A stretch of 64,000 bases of DNA from Fodinibius saliphilus (GTDB lineage Bacteria > Bacteroidota > Rhodothermia > Balneolales > Balneolaceae), in contig NZ_VAWF01000001.1 in the NCBI RefSeq assembly GCF_005869845.1, forward strand, positions 558,001 through 622,000. The letters are read 5' to 3'. Below, one piece after another: positions 33,769 to 43,509 of this stretch; the first letter of the stretch is position 1, and each line of letters begins with the position of its first letter. The position numbers were made by a program, and so were the translations under genes. Under the pieces are notes generated by a model that was not told the origin of the DNA, searched no databases, and was given only the letters and a program-made list of their open reading frames with translations.

Positions 33769-35322
33769 TTAATTAATCAATAATATCTTTCCCCGGATCG
33801 TATTGCCCGGGCTATCAATCTGGTAAAATACGGCCCCATTTGCCACGTCTTTCCCATTGGTTGTAGTGCCATCCCATACCGCTTCATAAGTCCCTGGAGT
33901 ATAGTCTCCTGATGCAATCTTTTTGATCAGTTTCATCCTGAAATCAAATAACCGGATTGTGACTTGCCCGGCCTTTTTTACTTCATATTTGATACGCACG
34001 AGACTGTGGCGTCGGGGTGAAAAGGGATTGGGATAGGCATAAGCGTTAACGTCCGGAGCATCCTGTTGGTAGTGATTGTTCCCATCAAGAGGGAAGTTAA
34101 CCCGTGTAATTTCCCAGTTCTCTCCACCATCGGCGGTTGAGGCGATACCATCACCGGTGCCGACCCATAGACGATTGGTAGTAGAGGCAATGCTATAATA
34201 TGCAGCAGACTTTTTGATAAAAGTATTTGCAGAAGTTATCTGTGGTATAGTTGTCCAATTAGCACCACCGTCACTGCTTTTAAATAACCCATCATCTCCA
34301 GCGGCATAAATAACCCCGTCAGAAAAATCAATGTCATTTATACGTTTTCCCTGCAAGTAGCGATCGAAGCTTTTTCCCCCGTTCCTGGTTCGAACAATAC
34401 CAAAACTTTCATTATCACGAAGCCCAGATGACCAGTTGGTCATCCAGATATCTCCGGTAGAGGGCTGCTGTTTAATGGTGATGATCCAGTTGCCTAATAA
34501 ACCATCTGAAGAGCCGTCTACTTGGATATGTCGCCATCGAATACTATCGGCAGGAGCAGTGAGTGCATTATCAGAGATATTTAGCCCTCCTGCGGTACCA
34601 CACCACACCCTATTACTGCGATCGATAAAGACCGAAAACCCCAATAGGTTCTGGTCAAAACGGGGATCATAACGATTGGTGCCATTGCTGTTAAATGTAT
34701 ATTCATTGTCTGGACTTAAGGTATCGACCTGCTGAGGAGGGAGTATAATTCGTTTCCAGTTTGCACCAAAATCTTGGCTTCTGACTAAGCCCAAGGCCCA
34801 ATTTGCAGAAAAAACGGTTTCTCCCTTAAAAGCTACCTCAAAAGACGGAGATTGTTGCTGTGCCGTAACAGGAAGCTTGGCATATCTTGTACCACCATAA
34901 ACGAAGGTGCTGTCATCCTCTTCGTCATTCGGATTTTTAATAAACTTCCAGTTTTCCCCTCCATCTGTGGAATAGTGGAATCCAAGTCCTGATTGTACAT
35001 CCCCGTTTGGTGTAGAGGCTGTGTAACCTAACCCTGCCCAAACGGTATCTTGTGCCAAGGCAAGGGAATATACGCTTCCTTCTTCATTTATAATTTTTTG
35101 CGCATTTTCAGGAAAATACCAATTTGCGCTATTGTCTATGGTACGATTTAAACCGGGACCTATCCATAAGGTATCACCAAATGTTTCCATATTTGAAACA
35201 GAATTACTCTTAATGGATCGGTCTGGAGAGGGAACAGGGCCTACAATTTGAGCTTTAAGAGATAGACTACCCCCTATAGACAAGAGGATAAAGCATAAAA
35301 GAAATCGTGATGACAGCACCAT
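33769..35322 (-). CDS. Exported BNR/sialidase-like repeat protein with C-terminal FlgD/T9SS-type domain
   Basis: The 517-residue protein has a signal peptide (about 1-24, ending SLKAQ). Beta-propeller-like repeats follow with Asp-box-like motifs (YSTDGGENWKFI, VRSQDFGANWKRI, FKSSDGGANWTTI, ASTADGGENWEI). From about residue 425 a C-terminal Ig-like domain reads AYPNPFSPRRHSLVRIKYEV, then VTIRLFDFRMKLIKKI and WDGTTTNGKDVANGAVFYQI. The YPNPF opening and FDFRMKLIKK/WDGTTxxGxxVxxG pattern are those of FlgD-Ig and type IX sorting domains. It would be secreted or surface-attached; the propeller target is unknown. It leads the operon with the two PorV/PorQ genes. Confidence 0.85.
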   Translation of the reverse strand: MVLSSRFLLCFILLSIGGSLSLKAQIVGPVPSPDRSIKSNSVSNMETFGDTLWIGPGLNRTIDNSANWYFPENAQKIINEEGSVYSLALAQDTVWAGLGYTASTPNGDVQSGLGFHYSTDGGENWKFIKNPNDEEDDSTFVYGGTRYAKLPVTAQQQSPSFEVAFKGETVFSANWALGLVRSQDFGANWKRIILPPQQVDTLSPDNEYTFNSNGTNRYDPRFDQNLLGFSVFIDRSNRVWCGTAGGLNISDNALTAPADSIRWRHIQVDGSSDGLLGNWIITIKQQPSTGDIWMTNWSSGLRDNESFGIVRTRNGGKSFDRYLQGKRINDIDFSDGVIYAAGDDGLFKSSDGGANWTTIPQITSANTFIKKSAAYYSIASTTNRLWVGTGDGIASTADGGENWEITRVNFPLDGNNHYQQDAPDVNAYAYPNPFSPRRHSLVRIKYEVKKAGQVTIRLFDFRMKLIKKIASGDYTPGTYEAVWDGTTTNGKDVANGAVFYQIDSPGNTIRGKILLIN

Positions 35323-35380: not shown

Positions 35381-35409
35381 TTGATTTTAGTACAGGTGGC
35401 TATTATATT
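35381..35409 (+). promoter_or_regulatory. Possible trp promoter (-35 TTGATT, -10 TATATT)
   Basis: TTGATT at 35381-35386 and TATATT at 35404-35409 are spaced by 17 bp. If correct, transcription starts near 35416, leaving the trp leader peptide almost leaderless (ATG at 35419). The match is to the general bacterial consensus, not the Bacteroidota-specific one, so it is tentative. Confidence 0.35.
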
Positions 35410-35418
35410 CAGAGCGTT

Positions 35419-35496
35419 ATGAAAAAATCAGCTCATAAAAATATCAATTGGTGGTGGCTCGTGAAACAACATACACGGGCAGTGGCATTTTTATGA
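35419..35496 (+). CDS. trpL: trp operon leader peptide with three tandem Trp codons
   Basis: A 25-codon frame from ATG 35419 to TGA 35494 encodes MKKSAHKNINWWWLVKQ and eight more residues. Codons 11-13 (35449-35457) are TGG TGG TGG. Three consecutive Trp codons in a short frame just upstream of trpE, followed by mutually exclusive hairpins, is the hallmark of a ribosome-mediated attenuator. A stalled ribosome at these codons would cover the 5' arm of the pause hairpin. A ribosome reaching the TGA would cover the antiterminator arm. Confidence 0.92.
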   Translation: MKKSAHKNINWWWLVKQHTRAVAFL

Positions 35497-35558
35497 GCTA
35501 GATTCACATAAGCACTTTTTTAGCGAACCCACTGCAGGAAACTGGAGTGGGTTTTTTT
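35430..35558 (+). promoter_or_regulatory. Trp transcription attenuator (pause hairpin, antiterminator, terminator)
   Basis: Arm 1, AGCTCATAAAAAT (35430-35442), and arm 2, ATTTTTATGAGCT (35487-35499), are a perfect 13-bp inverted repeat (pause hairpin). GCAGTGG (35479-35485), just before arm 2, can pair with CCACTGC (35529-35535), which is part of the 5' arm of the terminator (35526-35553). Antiterminator and terminator therefore exclude each other. With low charged tRNA-Trp the ribosome stalls on the WWW codons, freeing GCAGTGG to pair and allowing readthrough into trpE. With enough Trp the terminator forms. The mechanism is inferred from this geometry and from known trp attenuators. Confidence 0.9.
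35526..35558 (+). terminator. Intrinsic terminator of the trp attenuator
   Basis: AACCCACT (35526-35533) pairs with AGTGGGTT (35546-35553). The inner CAG-GAAA-CTG extends the stem across one G-G mismatch to a GAAA tetraloop. Seven T residues (35552-35558) follow. It lies 66 bp before the trpE ATG. Confidence 0.92.
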
Positions 35559-35624: not shown

Positions 35625-37088
35625 ATGAATATTGATAAGTTTACAGATTTGGCAAAGCAATATACTGCGATACCAGTTCACCGTCGTTTGATGGCTGATG
35701 TATTAACACCAGTATCCCTGTTCCTTTCGCTTCGCGATAACGGAGGGTATCCTTTTTTGCTGGAGTCAGTGGAGGGGGGAGAGCAAGTTGCTCGTTATTC
35801 GTTCTTGGGGCGAGATCCCTATCAGGTATTAAAATACGATGGGGAAGAAGTGGTACTGGAACGTGATGGCAATACTAGTTGCATCGATCAACCCTATTTT
35901 GAAGCTCTGAAAGCGCTAACCACTCAACACAGCGAGCCGGATATGCCCGAGCTTCCCCGTTTATCTGGTGGAGCTGTAGGTTTTTCTTCTTATGATACGG
36001 TTCGTGAGATCGAGCAGTTAGAAAATCATCCTCAGGATGATATAGATATACCGGAAGCTATTTGGGCCTTTTATGATGAGGTATTTGCCTTTGATCATGT
36101 AAAGCAGCAGGTCATTATCATAAAAACAGTGTTTATTGATGATGAGCATAATGCAGAAGCGAAATACCAGCAGGCACAGCAGAGGCTTAATGAGCTGGAA
36201 GATCGGGTGTATCAGCAGGGACAAACGACTGATACTTTTTCAATAGATCCGGATGATTTGTCTAGCAATATCAGCCAGCCAGAGTTTGAGCAGATGGTAG
36301 AAAAGGCGAAGGAGTATATTTATGAAGGTGATATCTTCCAAGTAGTGCTTTCACAGCGTTTTGAGACCAACTTTAGCGGAGATCGATTTATGTTGTATCG
36401 TGCGCTTCGGATGGTAAATCCTTCTCCATATCTGTTTTTCTTGGAATTTGGTGATTTTGCACTCGTTGGATCATCGCCCGAAGTGTTAGTTCGTGTGCAG
36501 GACGATACGGCCCAGCTGCTACCTATTGCAGGTACACGTCCCCGCGGTAAAACGCCAGAAGAAGACTTAGAACTGGAAAAAGATTTAAAGAACGATCCCA
36601 AGGAGATTGCAGAGCATGTGATGTTGGTTGATCTGGGACGAAATGATTTGTCGCGAGTTTGTAAACCTGCCACCGTACACCCGGTTCGTGAGCAGGTGAT
36701 AGAGCGTTATTCGCATGTTATGCATATTGTTTCTGATGTAAAAGGAGAGCTGAGGGATGATCAAACCTCAGTTGATGCACTGATACGCTGTTTTCCGGCT
36801 GGAACGGTGAGTGGAGCACCAAAAATTCGGGCCATGGAGATTATTGATGAACTTGAACCAACAAAACGAGGTCCCTATGCCGGAGCTGTTGGGTATTTCG
36901 ACTTTTCCGGAAATATGGATACCTGCATTGTAATCCGCACAATGATGGTGACTGAGTCAAAGGTATTTATACAAGCCGGGGCCGGTATTGTTGCCGACAG
37001 TAATCCCGAAAAAGAGTATCTAGAAACAAAGAATAAAGCTGGTGCTTTAGTAGAAGCATTAAGTGTAGCTTTATCAATTACAGATTAA
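35625..37088 (+). CDS. trpE: Anthranilate synthase component I
   Basis: The 487-residue enzyme converts chorismate to anthranilate with ammonia from TrpG. The N-terminal PFLLESVEGG (LLES at residues 45-48) is the Trp feedback-binding motif. The chorismate-binding domain shows DIFQVVLSQRF, IAGTRPRGKTPEED, LVDLGRNDLSRV, FPAGTVSGAPKIRAMEII and GAGIVADSNPEKEY. Length is typical. It is the first structural gene after the attenuator and is followed 37 bp later by trpS. Confidence 0.97.
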   Translation: MNIDKFTDLAKQYTAIPVHRRLMADVLTPVSLFLSLRDNGGYPFLLESVEGGEQVARYSFLGRDPYQVLKYDGEEVVLERDGNTSCIDQPYFEALKALTTQHSEPDMPELPRLSGGAVGFSSYDTVREIEQLENHPQDDIDIPEAIWAFYDEVFAFDHVKQQVIIIKTVFIDDEHNAEAKYQQAQQRLNELEDRVYQQGQTTDTFSIDPDDLSSNISQPEFEQMVEKAKEYIYEGDIFQVVLSQRFETNFSGDRFMLYRALRMVNPSPYLFFLEFGDFALVGSSPEVLVRVQDDTAQLLPIAGTRPRGKTPEEDLELEKDLKNDPKEIAEHVMLVDLGRNDLSRVCKPATVHPVREQVIERYSHVMHIVSDVKGELRDDQTSVDALIRCFPAGTVSGAPKIRAMEIIDELEPTKRGPYAGAVGYFDFSGNMDTCIVIRTMMVTESKVFIQAGAGIVADSNPEKEYLETKNKAGALVEALSVALSITD

Positions 37089-37125: not shown

Positions 37126-38115
37126 ATGAAAACTATTTTATCTGGTATTCAATCCTCTGGGAAATTACATCTGGGAAACTACTTTGGGGCTTTGCGTCAA
37201 CATATCCAGATGCAGGAAAAAGGAGATGCCTTCTATTTTATTGCCAATTATCACTCATTAACTTCTATTAATGATGGGGAAAAGATCTATAAGAACACTA
37301 TCGATGTAGCCCTTGATTATCTGGCCTTGGGACTTGATCCCAATAAGGCAACCTTTTTTGCTCAGAGTGATGTGCCGCAACATGCTGAGCTCGCTTGGAT
37401 ACTGGGTACGTTCTGTCCGGTAAGTTTGATGGAAAAGGGCGTAGCCTTTAAAGACAAGGTTGCCCAGGGCTTACATCCTAATATCGGTTTGTTTACCTAT
37501 CCCATTTTGCAGGCCGCAGATATTTTGATGTACAATGCTGATTTAGTGCCGGTAGGGCAAGACCAAAAGCAAAATATTGAGATTTGCCGTGATTTGGCCG
37601 GTAAATTTAATCATAATTATGGGGATGAATATCTGAAACTTCCAGAGCCACATATCTTAGAATCAGTGGCAGTAGTTCCGGGTATTGACGGACAAAAGAT
37701 GAGTAAATCATATGGTAATACGATTGGTATCTTTGATGAAGGCAAAGAGTTGAAAAAGAAGGTAATGTCGATAGAAACAGACTCTACGCCACTTGATGAG
37801 CCCAAAAATCCGGATAGTTGTAATGTCTTTGCACTGATAAAACTGTTTGCCGAAGAATATAAACAGAAAGAGATTGCTGAACAGTATCGTGCTGGGGGCT
37901 ACGGCTACGGTCATGCTAAAAAAGAACTTCTGGGTATGATAGAAGAGTATTTTGCTGAGGCTCGTGAAAAACGCAAAGAATTGGCCCAGGATATAGACAC
38001 CGTACGTGATATTCTGCGTGACGGTGGCAAGAAAGCCCGTGCCCGGGCGGAGAAAGTAATGGGGCCGGTGCGTGAGGTAACAGGACTGTTTAAAACATAC
38101 GACTATAGCAGCTAA
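37126..38115 (+). CDS. trpS: Tryptophan-tRNA ligase
   Basis: The 329-residue class I synthetase has the HIGH-type motif KLHLGNYFGAL (residues 13-23), the Trp-pocket region PVSLMEKGVAFKDK and ADILMYNADLVPVGQDQKQ, and the second signature DGQKMSKSYGNT (about 189-200). It charges tRNA-Trp, the molecule sensed by the attenuator upstream. Its location between trpE and trpG is unusual. Spacing of 37 bp before and 18 bp after implies cotranscription. Confidence 0.97.
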   Translation: MKTILSGIQSSGKLHLGNYFGALRQHIQMQEKGDAFYFIANYHSLTSINDGEKIYKNTIDVALDYLALGLDPNKATFFAQSDVPQHAELAWILGTFCPVSLMEKGVAFKDKVAQGLHPNIGLFTYPILQAADILMYNADLVPVGQDQKQNIEICRDLAGKFNHNYGDEYLKLPEPHILESVAVVPGIDGQKMSKSYGNTIGIFDEGKELKKKVMSIETDSTPLDEPKNPDSCNVFALIKLFAEEYKQKEIAEQYRAGGYGYGHAKKELLGMIEEYFAEAREKRKELAQDIDTVRDILRDGGKKARARAEKVMGPVREVTGLFKTYDYSS

Positions 38116-38133
38116 TCCATTGATATCTTTATT

Positions 38134-38709
38134 ATGGTTCTAATTATAGACAATTACGATTCCTTTACTTATAACCTGGTACATATAGTTGCTCAGCATA
38201 CTGAAAGTTATAAGGTAGTGCGTAATGATGCCCTTAGCATGGAGGAGATAAAGGCTTTAGACCCGGACAAGGTGCTTATTTCGCCTGGTCCGGGGCGTCC
38301 GGCTGATGCCGGAGTAACCAAGTCGGTGATAGAAGAGCTGGGAGCCCATACTCCAATATTGGGCGTATGTCTTGGTCACCAGGCGATAGGGGAAGTGTTC
38401 GGAGGAAAAGTGATCCATGCCCCCGAGCTTATGCACGGGAAGACTTCTCCAATAGATCATGACGGGAAATCAGTTTATAAAAATATTCCAACTCCCTTTA
38501 CTGCTACACGCTATCACTCATTGATATTGGACCCGCAACAGATTCCAGAGATGTTGGCGATTACAGCCCGCAGTGACGATGGGGTTATTATGGGGCTTCG
38601 TCATCGAGAGTTTCCAATCGAGGGAATCCAATTTCATCCCGAAAGTATCTTAACTACTGAAGGGCCAAATATTATTAAAAACTGGCTTGACCTGAAAACA
38701 GCAAACTAG
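38134..38709 (+). CDS. trpG: Anthranilate synthase component II (glutamine amidotransferase)
   Basis: The 191-residue class I amidotransferase supplies ammonia to TrpE. It shows IDNYDSFTYNLV, ISPGPGRPADAG, the nucleophile elbow GVCLGHQAIG (Cys79) and the His-Glu pair in GIQFHPESILT. Length is that of the stand-alone form. Such subunits can also serve aminodeoxychorismate synthase; context makes anthranilate synthesis the main role. Confidence 0.95.
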   Translation: MVLIIDNYDSFTYNLVHIVAQHTESYKVVRNDALSMEEIKALDPDKVLISPGPGRPADAGVTKSVIEELGAHTPILGVCLGHQAIGEVFGGKVIHAPELMHGKTSPIDHDGKSVYKNIPTPFTATRYHSLILDPQQIPEMLAITARSDDGVIMGLRHREFPIEGIQFHPESILTTEGPNIIKNWLDLKTAN

Positions 38710-38757: not shown

Positions 38758-39804
38758 ATGCAAAAGGTTAAAGACTTTAGTTCAATATTAGATAAAGCAG
38801 TGAACTCTAAAGATCTTACTGATATAGAAGCACGACAAGCCCTGCAGCAGATCGTAAATGGTGAGATCAAAAATGAACAAATTGCTTCTTTTTTAACAGC
38901 CATGCGAGCAAAGGGTGAGACCACCGATGAGCTAACCGCTTTTGTAAAAGTAATGCGTGAAGAGGCCATTAAACCAGAAGTTGAAACAGAAGGTGCTATA
39001 GATCTATGTGGCACAGGTGGAGATAGCTCAGGGACTTTTAATATCTCTACGGCTTCTATGTTTGTAGTATCCGGAGCCGGCGTGCCGGTGTTAAAACATG
39101 GAAATAGGAGTGTTTCCAGTAAGAGCGGTAGCGCAGATGTGTTAGAAGCTCTGGGGGGTGTTGTGATGTTGGAGAAGGGTCAGGTAGAGCAGGTTTTTGA
39201 AGAAACGGGATTGGTGTTTATGTTCGCTCCGTTTTTCCATCCAGCCATGAAACACGTGATGCCTGCCCGGCGAGCAATGGGAATAAGAACATTTTTTAAT
39301 ATTCTTGGGCCACTTTTAAATCCAGCTGGGGTGAGTCGGCAAATGATAGGAGCATATAATATAGATGTTGCTAGACAGATTGCTCATATTCTTGCAAACC
39401 TTGAGACCGATTTTGCTTACACCGTGAATGCCCATGATGGTCTTGATGAGGTAAGTTTATGTGCTCAGTCAGAGATATTTGAGCTTAATGGGAGTTTGGT
39501 CAAAGAAGCGACGACATTTGATCCTCGGTCCCTTGATTTCAATTGGACTGATCTTGATGAACTCCAGGGTGGAGATGCTGAATATAATGCCAATATTATT
39601 CGCTCTATTATGGCTAATAATGCCACCGAAGCACAAGAGAATGTGATACTGTTAAATGCTACTTTTGGTATACATGCTTCCGGAAAAGCAGATCATCTAT
39701 CCGAAGCCAGGGAAATGGCAGAGGAGAGTTTAAGATCGGGAAAAGCATTGCAGGCATTAGATGATTTTATAGAGGTAACAACAGAAGTTGCAAATCAGTC
39801 GTAA
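38758..39804 (+). CDS. trpD: Anthranilate phosphoribosyltransferase
   Basis: The 348-residue enzyme transfers phosphoribose from PRPP to anthranilate. Motifs are DLCGTGGDSSGTFNIST (PRPP loop), VLKHGNRSVSSKSGSADVLEALG, MFAPFFHPAMKHVMPARRAMGIRTFFNILGPLLNP (in parts) and the metal site VNAHDGLDEVSL. It is a stand-alone gene, not fused to trpG. trpC follows after 2 bp. Confidence 0.97.
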   Translation: MQKVKDFSSILDKAVNSKDLTDIEARQALQQIVNGEIKNEQIASFLTAMRAKGETTDELTAFVKVMREEAIKPEVETEGAIDLCGTGGDSSGTFNISTASMFVVSGAGVPVLKHGNRSVSSKSGSADVLEALGGVVMLEKGQVEQVFEETGLVFMFAPFFHPAMKHVMPARRAMGIRTFFNILGPLLNPAGVSRQMIGAYNIDVARQIAHILANLETDFAYTVNAHDGLDEVSLCAQSEIFELNGSLVKEATTFDPRSLDFNWTDLDELQGGDAEYNANIIRSIMANNATEAQENVILLNATFGIHASGKADHLSEAREMAEESLRSGKALQALDDFIEVTTEVANQS

Positions 39805-39806
39805 TT

Positions 39807-40619
39807 ATGTCCAATATACTTGAAGAAATTGTAGAACAAACGGCATCAGATCTTAAGAAGCGAAAGAAAGAACGTAGTTTTAGTGATCTGGGAGACTTGG
39901 AGCTTTATGAAGAAAAATCACAAAATTTTGCTGAATCATTACTACAAGATAATGATGTGGCTATTATTGCGGAAATTAAAAAAGCTTCTCCATCAAAAGG
40001 ACTTATAAGACCGGACTTTGATCCACAAAAAATAGCGGCTCAATACCAAGAGGGAGGGGCCTCAGCGATATCAGTATTAACCGATGAGCCAGCCTTTAAA
40101 GGTAGCCTAAAGTATCTTGAAATTTCTTCCAGGGAAGTATCTATTCCATTGCTGCGCAAGGATTTTATTATTGATCCTTATCAAATAAAAGAAGCTAAAG
40201 CTTTTGGGGCTGATGCGGTATTACTTATTGCTACAATTACCGATGGACATCAGCTGCAGGAGTTGTTACATGCTACCAAGGAGTTTGAATTGCAAGCTCT
40301 GGTAGAATGTTATTCGGAAGAGGATTTTCAATATGTTAACTTTGAAGAGGTCGATATTCTGGGAGTCAATAATCGTGATCTCAGAACTTTTGAGGTAGAC
40401 TTACATCGCGGTGTAGAGCTGTTACATAAAGCACCCGATGATACGGTACTGGTCTCTGAAAGTGGACTGGGTAGTGCTGGTGATTTACAGTTTTTGTTTG
40501 AACAAAATATTGATGCTGCTCTTATTGGAGAATATTTTATGAGACAAAGTAATCCCGGAGAAGCCGTGTCGGCAATGAAATCAGAACTTCAGAAATTAAT
40601 AACTTCAGAAACAGAATAG
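39807..40619 (+). CDS. trpC: Indole-3-glycerol phosphate synthase
   Basis: The 270-residue (beta/alpha)8 enzyme closes the indole ring. Catalytic motifs are IIAEIKKASPSKG (Glu and Lys), ISVLTDEPAFKGSL, LLRKDFIIDPYQI, LLIATI, LVECYSEEDF, ILGVNNRDLRTFEVD and VSESGL. Length is typical. The stop is immediately followed by the trpF ATG with no gap. Confidence 0.97.
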   Translation: MSNILEEIVEQTASDLKKRKKERSFSDLGDLELYEEKSQNFAESLLQDNDVAIIAEIKKASPSKGLIRPDFDPQKIAAQYQEGGASAISVLTDEPAFKGSLKYLEISSREVSIPLLRKDFIIDPYQIKEAKAFGADAVLLIATITDGHQLQELLHATKEFELQALVECYSEEDFQYVNFEEVDILGVNNRDLRTFEVDLHRGVELLHKAPDDTVLVSESGLGSAGDLQFLFEQNIDAALIGEYFMRQSNPGEAVSAMKSELQKLITSETE

Positions 40620-41294
40620 ATGTTTGCAGATCCAGAAGAACGAACGAAAGTAAAAATTTGTGGAATTACCTCACTTGAAGATGCCCGATTTGTATCTGGG
40701 GCACTGGCCCACTATATGGGATTTATCTTTTATGAAGAAAGCCCTCGCAGTATTACACCTGCTGAAGCTGGAGCCATGATTAACTGGTTGCATGGCCCAA
40801 AATGTGTCGGTGTTTTTGTAAATCAGCCATTAGATGATGTGAATATGATTGGACGACAGACCGGCATAGATTATGTGCAGCTTCATGGGAATGAAAACCC
40901 AGAATATTGTTCAATGGTTGATAAACCGGTCATAAAGGCAATCCATGTAGAAAAGGGCGACACGGCATCAGATCTTAATAATCGAATTTCGCCATACCTC
41001 GACTATGTGGAGTATATCCTTTTTGATACAAATATTGATGGACAGTGGGGAGGTACCGGTCAGTCGTTTAATTGGTCAGTACTGGATGAAGTGGCGCAAG
41101 GAATACCTTATTTCTTGGCAGGGGGATTAAATGCGAGTAATATCCGTGAGGCCTGTAAGCAGGTTCAACCTTATGCTGTTGATGTTTCCAGTGGTTTAGA
41201 AGCTGATCCTGGGATAAAAGATTTTGATAAGGTTGATGCATTTATGGAAGAGATGCGAGATATTTGGGAGAAACAAGAAATGGGTGAGTTATAA
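40620..41294 (+). CDS. trpF: Phosphoribosylanthranilate isomerase
   Basis: The 224-residue isomerase opens with VKICGITSLEDARF (catalytic Cys), then GFIFYEESPRSI, CVGVFVNQ, VQLHGNENPEYC, LFDTNIDGQWGGTGQSFNW (catalytic Asp and phosphate loop), AGGLNASNI and DVSSGLEADPGIKD. It is a separate gene. A 155-bp gap without a gene separates it from trpB. Confidence 0.96.
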   Translation: MFADPEERTKVKICGITSLEDARFVSGALAHYMGFIFYEESPRSITPAEAGAMINWLHGPKCVGVFVNQPLDDVNMIGRQTGIDYVQLHGNENPEYCSMVDKPVIKAIHVEKGDTASDLNNRISPYLDYVEYILFDTNIDGQWGGTGQSFNWSVLDEVAQGIPYFLAGGLNASNIREACKQVQPYAVDVSSGLEADPGIKDFDKVDAFMEEMRDIWEKQEMGEL

Positions 41295-41449: not shown

Positions 41450-42637
41450 ATGAAATACGATTTACCAACGAAGGAAGGATATTTTGGCAATTTTGGAGGG
41501 AAGTTTGTGCCTGAAATATTAATTCCGGTGCTTGAAGAACTGGAAGAGGCCTATAATGAAGCTTGGCATGATAATTCTTTTCTGAAGGAATATAGTAGCT
41601 TATTAAATGAATATGTTGGACGTCCTACTAAATTGACCTATGCAAATCGGTTGACTGAGTACTATGGAAAGGCCAAGATTTATTTGAAACGAGAGGACCT
41701 ATGCCATACAGGAGCTCATAAAATTAATAATGCTATCGGGCAGATTTTATTGGCTCGACGTATGGGGAAAGATCGAATTATTGCCGAAACCGGCGCCGGG
41801 CAACATGGGGTAGCTACTGCTACGGCCTGTGCCAAGTTCGGGGTCGATTGTATTGTATACATGGGGGCTGAGGATATGGAGCGACAAAAGCTGAATGTTG
41901 AACGGATGAGACTACTTGGTACCGAAGTTCGTTCTGTGACTAGTGGGTCGCAAACATTAAAAGACGCTACGAACGAAGCGATTCGAGACTGGGTAACCAA
42001 CGTAGAGGATACATTTTATATCATCGGTTCTGTTGTTGGCCCGCATCCATACCCCAAGATGGTTCGTAATTTCCATAGGGTAATAGGTGATGAAATTCGA
42101 TCACAGCTTAAAGAGGCTGAGGGTCAAGAGACGCCTGATCATTTATTGGCCTGTGTAGGCGGGGGGTCTAATGCTATCGGAGCTTTTTATCCTTTTATCG
42201 AAGATGAAGAAGTCAAAATGTATGGTCTTGAAGCAGCAGGTTTAGGGGCAAATACTGATGAGACTGCTGCTACTCTTACTATTGGAACTCCTGGGGTACT
42301 ACACGGTTCCATGAGTTATCTACTGCATGATACCGATGGACAAATCCAGCTTGCACATTCTATTAGTGCAGGGCTTGATTATCCGGGTATAGGGCCAGAG
42401 CATTCTTATCTGCATGAGACGAAGCGGGTTAAATATCATTCAATAACGGATAATGAGGCTATGGAGGGAGTAAAATTACTTTCAGAGACAGAAGGTATTA
42501 TACCCGCTCTTGAAACTGCTCATGCCATTGCTTACCTGGATGAACTAATGCCTAAAACATCAGAAGATGAGATCGTTGTTTTGAACTGTTCCGGACGGGG
42601 TGATAAAGATATGACTACAATTTCCAAGAATCTTTAA
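41450..42637 (+). CDS. trpB: Tryptophan synthase beta chain
   Basis: The 395-residue PLP enzyme joins indole and serine. It shows [35 protein letters not shown] (Schiff-base Lys), [13 protein letters not shown], the phosphate loop [12 protein letters not shown] and [10 protein letters not shown]. It is the TrpB1 type, normally partnered with TrpA, which follows. The 155-bp upstream gap could hold an internal promoter; none is obvious. Confidence 0.97.
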
Positions 42638-42696: not shown

Positions 42697-43509
42697 ATGA
42701 TTACGACGAAAAACAGAGTTGCACAACTATTTGAAAACCATGATGATTCATCAAAAATAATGAGTCTCTTTCTTACTGCGGGCTATCCTGATGTAGAGTC
42801 ATGTGTAGACTTAATCCTGGGGTTTGATAAAAACGGAGTTGATATGGTCGAGCTGGGAATGCCGTTTAGTGATCCTCTTGCTGACGGTCCTACAATACAA
42901 TATTCCAGCAATGTAGCTATAGAGCAGGGCATTACTATGGAAAAAATCCTGGATATTGTAAAGCAAGTTCGTAAAAAATCAGAGATCCCTATTATCTTAA
43001 TGGGATATATCAATCCTGTTATTAAATATGGAATTGAACGGTTTTGCCAAGAAGCTTCTAAGGTTGGTGTCGATGGTCTTATTATTCCTGATATTCCTAT
43101 TGAAGAGTCAGGTATTATGACAAAAGAAGCAGAGCAGCATAATTTGCCAATAATATATTTGGTAGCTCCAAATACGTCAGATGAGCGCATGCGTAATATC
43201 GATGAACAGTCACAAGGATTTGTTTATTGTGTCTCAGTAACGGGCGTTACCGGAGCCCGGGAAGGTGAGGAGGTAGCTCAATCGGTACAACGCTTTATTG
43301 ATAGAGTAAAAACCAATATCAGTCAGAATCCCAAAATGGTAGGTTTCGGTATCAAATCTCATGAAGATGCTCAAAAAATTGCAGCTGATATGGATGGGTT
43401 TATTGTGGGAAGTGCCCTCATTGATACTATAAGAGAAAACTACCCTAAAAAAGGTTGGAAGGATGAAGTATTTGCTTTTGTTAGAACGTTGAAGTATGGT
43501 ACGGAGTAA
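42697..43509 (+). CDS. trpA: Tryptophan synthase alpha chain
   Basis: From the ATG at 42697 the protein has 270 residues, the family's usual size. Motifs are LTAGYPDVES, VELGMPFSDPLADGPTIQ (catalytic Glu and Asp), MGYINPVIKYGIERF, GLIIPDIPIEES, YLVAPNTSDERM, YCVSVTGVTGAR and GFGIKSHEDA. In-frame starts at 42652 (GTG) and 42661 (ATG) would add 15 or 12 residues that do not match the family. It releases indole to TrpB. The DUF4837 gene follows after 26 bp. Confidence 0.95.
   Translation: MITTKNRVAQLFENHDDSSKIMSLFLTAGYPDVESCVDLILGFDKNGVDMVELGMPFSDPLADGPTIQYSSNVAIEQGITMEKILDIVKQVRKKSEIPIILMGYINPVIKYGIERFCQEASKVGVDGLIIPDIPIEESGIMTKEAEQHNLPIIYLVAPNTSDERMRNIDEQSQGFVYCVSVTGVTGAREGEEVAQSVQRFIDRVKTNISQNPKMVGFGIKSHEDAQKIAADMDGFIVGSALIDTIRENYPKKGWKDEVFAFVRTLKYGTE

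Follow-up and report, generated by a model that had tools for sequence, protein, structure and literature searches.

Upstream of the trp genes in the window, a stretch of 64,000 nucleotides, lies a short open reading frame (ORF) with three consecutive Trp codons, accompanied by several potential hairpins. The question raised by this locus is whether these elements form an attenuator in which a translating ribosome controls transcription of the genes downstream, and whether such a device in this bacterial group widens the known range of the mechanism. Comparison of related loci and modeled folding make it almost certain that the element is a ribosome-mediated trp operon attenuator, sensing Trp-tRNA(Trp).

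Host and Gene Context

The named relatives of the encoded TrpE protein belong to the Balneolaceae (Gracilimonas, Rhodohalobacter, and Balneola, at approximately 70% identity), a family assigned to the phylum Balneolota in the NCBI taxonomy and to the Bacteroidota lineage by GTDB. The leader is followed by an intact trp cluster, trpE-trpS-trpG-trpD-trpC-trpF-trpB-trpA, in which all genes run in one direction on the plus strand and are probably co-transcribed. Matches above cut-off identify trpE (35625–37088, TIGR00564), trpS (37126–38115, TIGR00233), trpG (38134–38709, TIGR00566), trpD (38758–39804, TIGR01245), trpC (39807–40619, NF001377), trpB (41450–42637, TIGR00263), and trpA (42697–43509, TIGR00262; start codon uncertain), and trpF (40620–41294) matches NF002298 with 212.3 bits, slightly below its cut-off of 215. 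The trpS gene, second in the cluster, is the sole copy found in the genome. In every Balneolales locus examined it comes after trpE, an order seen in 0 of 3 Ignavibacteria loci from the same search. Inclusion of trpS within the trp cluster means that low tRNA charging should boost tryptophan synthesis and, along with it, the synthetase responsible for charging. With the only TrpS gene and tryptophan synthesis both behind the attenuator, the sensor, charged tRNA, is tied to its own supply. No match to the TrpR family (PF01371) rises above cut-off in the 12 genomes of the genus, which yield weak partial matches only.

Architecture of the Leader

All elements of the leader lie on the plus strand. 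The leader peptide ORF, MKKSAHKNINWWWLVKQHTRAVAFL* (35419–35496), has 25 codons and a homologous ORF in all 12 genomes of the genus. Its three Trp control codons, TGGTGGTGG (35449–35457), specify WWW in 11 of these 12 members and WCW in the remaining one. Two nested helices make up the 1:2 structure. The inner helix pairs GCTCGTG (35457–35463), which begins in the last Trp codon, with CACGGGC (35474–35480), which overlaps the antiterminator strand, and the outer helix joins 35430–35442 to 35487–35499 through 13 bp. The antiterminator is formed by 7 bp between arm 2, GCAGTGG (35479–35485), and arm 3, CCACTGC (35529–35535), the latter held in common with the intrinsic terminator, whose 5′ arm ACCCACTGCAG (35527–35537) pairs with the 3′ arm CTGGAGTGGGT (35542–35552) and which ends in a tract of seven T residues (35552–35558). 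The region as a whole folds with an energy of −49.4 kcal/mol, as against −28.8 kcal/mol in dinucleotide shuffles (z = −5.64, 0 of 200).

The preliminary description had reported the leader frame with its three TGG codons, the 13-bp helix, the antiterminator, and the terminator with seven Ts, and each of these is present at exactly the positions given above. One of its details needs adjustment. It had called the 13-bp helix the pause hairpin; the helix is real, but it is a genus-level outer extension of the shorter inner helix, which had been missed. It had also placed the stop codon inside arm 2, as the classical mechanism needs; the stop codon (35494–35496) lies in the distal arm of the 13-bp helix, 3′ of the antiterminator arm.

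Covariation of the Helices

Within the genus, 97.5% of cells are paired in the inner helix, where 3 of 7 pairs have changed on both sides, and 85.3% are paired in the outer helix, with compensatory changes at two pairs. Both helices were predicted unprompted by RNAalifold, the outer one for the most part. Over 44 sequences of the family the antiterminator is paired in 98.7% of cells and shows compensatory changes in 13 cells, including GC to AU and UA to CG (0 of 500 shuffles), while the terminator is paired in 98.6% of cells, with 5 of 10 pairs changed on both sides and 77 such cells. Arm 3 thus co-varies with two different partners, as would be expected of an attenuator. Midway along the terminator stem, a G-G mismatch (35534 with 35545) persists in each of the two main sequence types of the family; its 5′ G is needed in the antiterminator, where it pairs with C.

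Conservation Across Taxa

A single script was run on all trpE loci, scoring both the tandem-Trp leader ORF upstream of trpE and a strict three-part architecture (leader, terminator, and antiterminator, with exact complementarity demanded). From the family level upward the loci were sampled, in part from closely related genomes, so that the figures are counts and not independent events. On this basis the tandem-Trp leader ORF is present at all 12 loci of the genus, at 37 of 42 loci from other genera of the family, at 17 of 20 from other families of the order, at 18 of 20 from other orders of the class, and at 12 of 20 from other classes of the phylum, as compared with 5 of 55 TrpE loci from other phyla (Cyanobacteria, Planctomycetota, Nitrospirota, and others). 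The strict architecture was detected at 12/12, 30/42, 8/20, 11/20, and 4/20 loci at these successive levels and at 1/55 in other phyla; the low counts for order and class are due in part to the demand for exact complementarity. Four automatically called leaders (L096, L102, L128, and L129) were set aside as in-gene or chance frames, and one locus (L105) has spaced Trp codons, recognized by eye, that the tandem-Trp scan missed.

A covariance model built from the 44 family sequences was searched against 146 genomes of the class, 85 of which gave matches at E ≤ 0.01. The strong matches mostly abut known trpE coordinates, and the weaker ones include unrelated terminators. The preliminary description had let its reading depend on whether Trp codons and hairpins are conserved in relatives, and the upstream regions of related trpE genes do conserve tandem Trp codons together with covarying hairpins.

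These counts bear directly on the simplest competing explanation, that the short ORF and its hairpins arose by chance or are decayed remnants, lying beside an ordinary terminator of an upstream transcript. Short tandem-Trp frames by themselves are not rare, occurring in 89 of 845 dinucleotide-shuffled upstream regions (approximately 10%), and genus g5 of the family has a terminator without a tandem-Trp leader. The complete architecture, however, was found in none of the 845 shuffled regions as against all 12 loci of the genus, and compensatory changes are seen in all three helices. In addition, the neighboring gene 5′ of the leader (33769–35322) is encoded on the minus strand, so that the terminator belongs to the trp leader and there is no transcript in the same direction for it to end. 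As a general explanation, chance is already refuted by conservation and covariation among the aligned sequences, and for the present locus it is extremely improbable.

Equally improbable is the proposal that the attenuator depends on a protein or a tRNA (TRAP, a T-box, or a tryptophan riboswitch), the short ORF being incidental. Systems of these kinds do control trp genes in other phyla. An Rfam search of the whole window at the gathering threshold nevertheless returned no match to a T-box or any other RNA family, and the terminator and antiterminator accompany tandem Trp codons throughout the class, an association that no such system requires.

A third proposal accepts attenuation in cis and adds an action in trans of the released leader peptide or RNA, as reported for the leader peptide peTrpL of Sinorhizobium (PMC7298713). 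Residues around the Trp run are similar within the genus (KSAHKN..NWWWPV....AVAFL). The RNA arms in which these residues are encoded account for their conservation, however: AVA corresponds to the antiterminator arm, and SAHKN and AFL* to the arms of the outer helix. Between genera the peptide varies freely apart from the Trp run. An added role in trans is accordingly very unlikely.

Departures from the common pattern, and similar leaders elsewhere, were also encountered. The five g5 loci (L066–L070, in genomes of 1.9–2.6 Mb) carry a terminator, CCCACTTTTT...AAAAAGTGGG followed by a T run, and lack a tandem-Trp leader ORF; attenuation in this genus may have been lost or replaced. Six loci of family f25, of Ignavibacteria type (L113–L118), have Trp-rich leaders such as WWWW, WFWWW, and WAWFWF upstream of trpE, with a terminator in 5 of 6; for two of them (L113 and L114), Rfam returned nothing at E ≤ 1. 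A control locus from a Deltaproteobacteria MAG (L204) has MELTIGKSDVRYYWWWYSYGRVMSTA upstream of trpE, which is a likely trp leader.

Predicted Switching of the Leader RNA

The effect of the ribosome was simulated by masking in 49 sequences, with the RNA ended before the 3′ arm of the terminator (arm 4). With the mask of a ribosome stalled at the Trp codons, arm 3 is predicted to pair in the antiterminator region with a mean probability of 0.93, exceeding 0.5 in 49 of 49 sequences. The preliminary description had suggested a comparable folding, with arm 1 blocked, as a check, and under the stall mask the antiterminator is predicted to form in every relative. A mask at the stop codon lowers the mean to 0.02, with 0 of 49 above 0.5, a result that is nearly forced since arm 2 is itself masked. 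In the unmasked RNA the mean antiterminator pairing is 0.41, and 0.0 for the window's own sequence; in 18 of the 49 relatives, free RNA that lacks arm 4 also favors the antiterminator. When spacers were shuffled under the stall mask, 34% of sequences exceeded 0.5, a level well below the 49 of 49 of the real leaders, although by itself this test does not settle the matter. When the full-length RNA was folded at equilibrium with a masked ribosome, the terminator prevailed in every ribosome state, and for this reason antitermination would have to be kinetic and depend on timing, as it does in other attenuators.

Taken together, the features by which a trp attenuator is recognized are found at this locus: a tandem-Trp short ORF before a trp operon, an intrinsic terminator between the leader and the first gene, a protector (1:2) hairpin, the free RNA of the window's sequence being predicted to lack the antiterminator, and an antiterminator exclusive with the terminator that, from folding models and covariation, would be set free once a ribosome stalls on the Trp codons. 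Conservation, covariation, and modeled folding strongly support the ribosome-mediated mechanism that had been proposed.

Promoter-Like Boxes and a Probably Near-Leaderless ORF

Two promoter-like boxes precede the leader, namely TTGA (35381–35384), for which a promoter role is presumed, and 19 nt further downstream TATATTC (35404–35410), which resembles TAnnTTtG and ends 8 nt before the leader ATG. Searched as TTG[AC], a spacer of 14 to 22 nt, and TA(2–3 nt)TT[TC], the box pair is found just 5′ of the leader in 61 of 67 Balneolales leaders, in comparison with 3.8% within 30 nt in composition shuffles. The downstream box lies 0–9 nt from the ATG in all 61 leaders, most commonly 8 nt, and among 16 leaders from the remaining orders of the class, 9 have a looser form of the box pattern 4–9 nt from the ATG. 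At six loci of the Bacteroid-trp type (see below) the distance from box to ATG is 18–26 nt in four and 6 nt in one, and one has no pair. Promoter boxes lie at a usual distance from the transcription start site, and because of this distance the RNA would start within a few bases of the ATG. The leader ORF therefore appears to be near-leaderless, judging from sequence patterns. With its constant short distance between box and ATG, the leader lends itself to testing whether leaderless translation serves regulation outside the mycobacteria.

A Related Leader Rich in Cys and Met Codons

The weaker matches of the covariance model also pointed to leader ORFs with many Cys and Met codons, such as MNFHNQIHNFLVMPVAMCCMCMCCCMHMPGGSGTDMRK, accompanied by antiterminators of the type GGTAGTGG/CCACTACC and intrinsic terminators, located upstream of a rhodanese-type sulfurtransferase whose best NCBIfam match, below cut-off, is 3-mercaptopyruvate sulfurtransferase. 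The genome that contains the window has such a case on another contig (G000, contig C2), where the leader MRFLNYIYKPFANMPMCMCCMCTAKGSGCNFPA lies 5′ of the sulfurtransferase gene at 442328–443167 (L233). This kind of leader is present in 13 of 13 sulfurtransferase loci read, one genome (G004) having been read twice (L228 and L237); besides L233, the loci with such leaders include L222, L223, L227, L231, L232, and L234–L240. An Rfam search of four of these loci gave no family at cut-off and one weak match far below it. The sulfurtransferase leader is probably a cysteine- or methionine-sensing attenuator. A broader reading holds that promoter and leader ORF are fused across the class, with the downstream box about 8 nt from the leader ATG and the leader peptide started at the 5′ end of a leaderless RNA, and that the lineage employs ribosome-mediated attenuation for more than one amino acid (Trp, and Cys/Met before a sulfurtransferase). 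The case for this reading is close to evenly balanced, and we lean slightly against it.

Proposed Mechanism

In the proposed course of events, RNA polymerase would start only a few bases from the leader ATG, followed by a ribosome that translates the leader. When Trp-tRNA is plentiful, the ribosome would reach the stop codon at 35494–35496 and cover arm 2, or would leave and so allow the inner and outer helices to form; by either route CCCACT would pair with AGTGGG, and transcription would terminate at the T tract (35552–35558). When Trp-tRNA is scarce, a ribosome stalled on the three UGG codons would hold both 1:2 helices open, and GCAGUGG could pair with CCACUGC before the 3′ arm of the terminator is made, resulting in read-through into trpE-trpS-trpGDCFBA. 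Translation of the leader and its response to tryptophan are expected from this architecture.

Relation to Known Attenuators

Naville and Gautheret (2010, PMC2965389) stated that, to their knowledge, leader-peptide systems had not been shown beyond the Proteobacteria and Actinobacteria. A trp leader RNA of the Bacteroidetes has nonetheless been catalogued as Bacteroid-trp (RF01692; Weinberg et al., 2010, PMC2864571), a precedent that surfaced here as an Rfam match in one relative (L130). The suggestion that an attenuator in this genome would widen the known range is therefore weakly supported, as Bacteroidetes trp leader attenuators were already on record. A search for literature on trp attenuation in Bacteroidetes or Rhodothermus found no paper, and the comparison of Lopatovskaya et al. 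(2010) may list related leaders. Matches to RF01692 occur in 20 of 198 sampled genomes of the phylum, in families f29, f21, and f32, all outside the class of the window. At its cut-off of 49 bits the model has no match in the window, in the genome that contains it, or in any of 60 genomes of the order, and in locus L001 none even at E ≤ 1. The present element and Bacteroid-trp are alike in being cis-attenuating trp leader RNAs, close upstream of trpE where both were mapped in one genome, with a WWW short ORF (in Bacteroid-trp, for example, MKTILNNTWWWNNLRQSS), and in belonging to one phylum as GTDB draws it; they differ in leader sequence and arms.

In Escherichia coli, trpL has a tandem-UGG leader, mutually exclusive 1:2, 2:3, and 3:4 pairings, an intrinsic terminator, and an arm 1 that overlaps the Trp codons, and all of these are shared by the present element. 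Here, however, the leader has 25 codons, the stop codon lies 3′ of the antiterminator arm, the ORF is seemingly near-leaderless, and TrpR is absent above cut-off. The corresponding Rfam family (RF00513, Trp_leader; cut-off 41 bits) has no match in the window and reaches at best 28.1 bits in the relatives tested. The element thus works like Bacteroid-trp and trpL, and yet by test it lies outside both Rfam families; it exemplifies trp attenuators conserved throughout a class that lies beyond the reach of the Rfam model for such RNAs.

Actinobacteria have leaders with double or triple UGG codons before trp operons, and in Streptomyces trpS is also under trp attenuation (Seliverstov et al., 2005, PMC1262725). 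Such leaders and the attenuation of trpS are both paralleled here, the difference being that the actinobacterial trpS has an attenuator of its own, whereas the single trpS found here occupies second place in the trp cluster. Mycobacteria are reported to use leaderless short ORFs with poly-Cys runs as attenuators (Canestrari et al., 2020, cited in PMC9031893). The similarity lies in an attenuating ORF at or near the transcript 5′ end, a position that is probable for the present leader, and the differences lie in the Cys codons and in the phylum. For the specialist, the points of note are how widely the leader is conserved, that the attenuator precedes the only trpS, and that the leader ORF is probably leaderless. 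With these comparisons the known range of trp attenuation is filled in rather than newly opened, and its mechanism is not new but extended.
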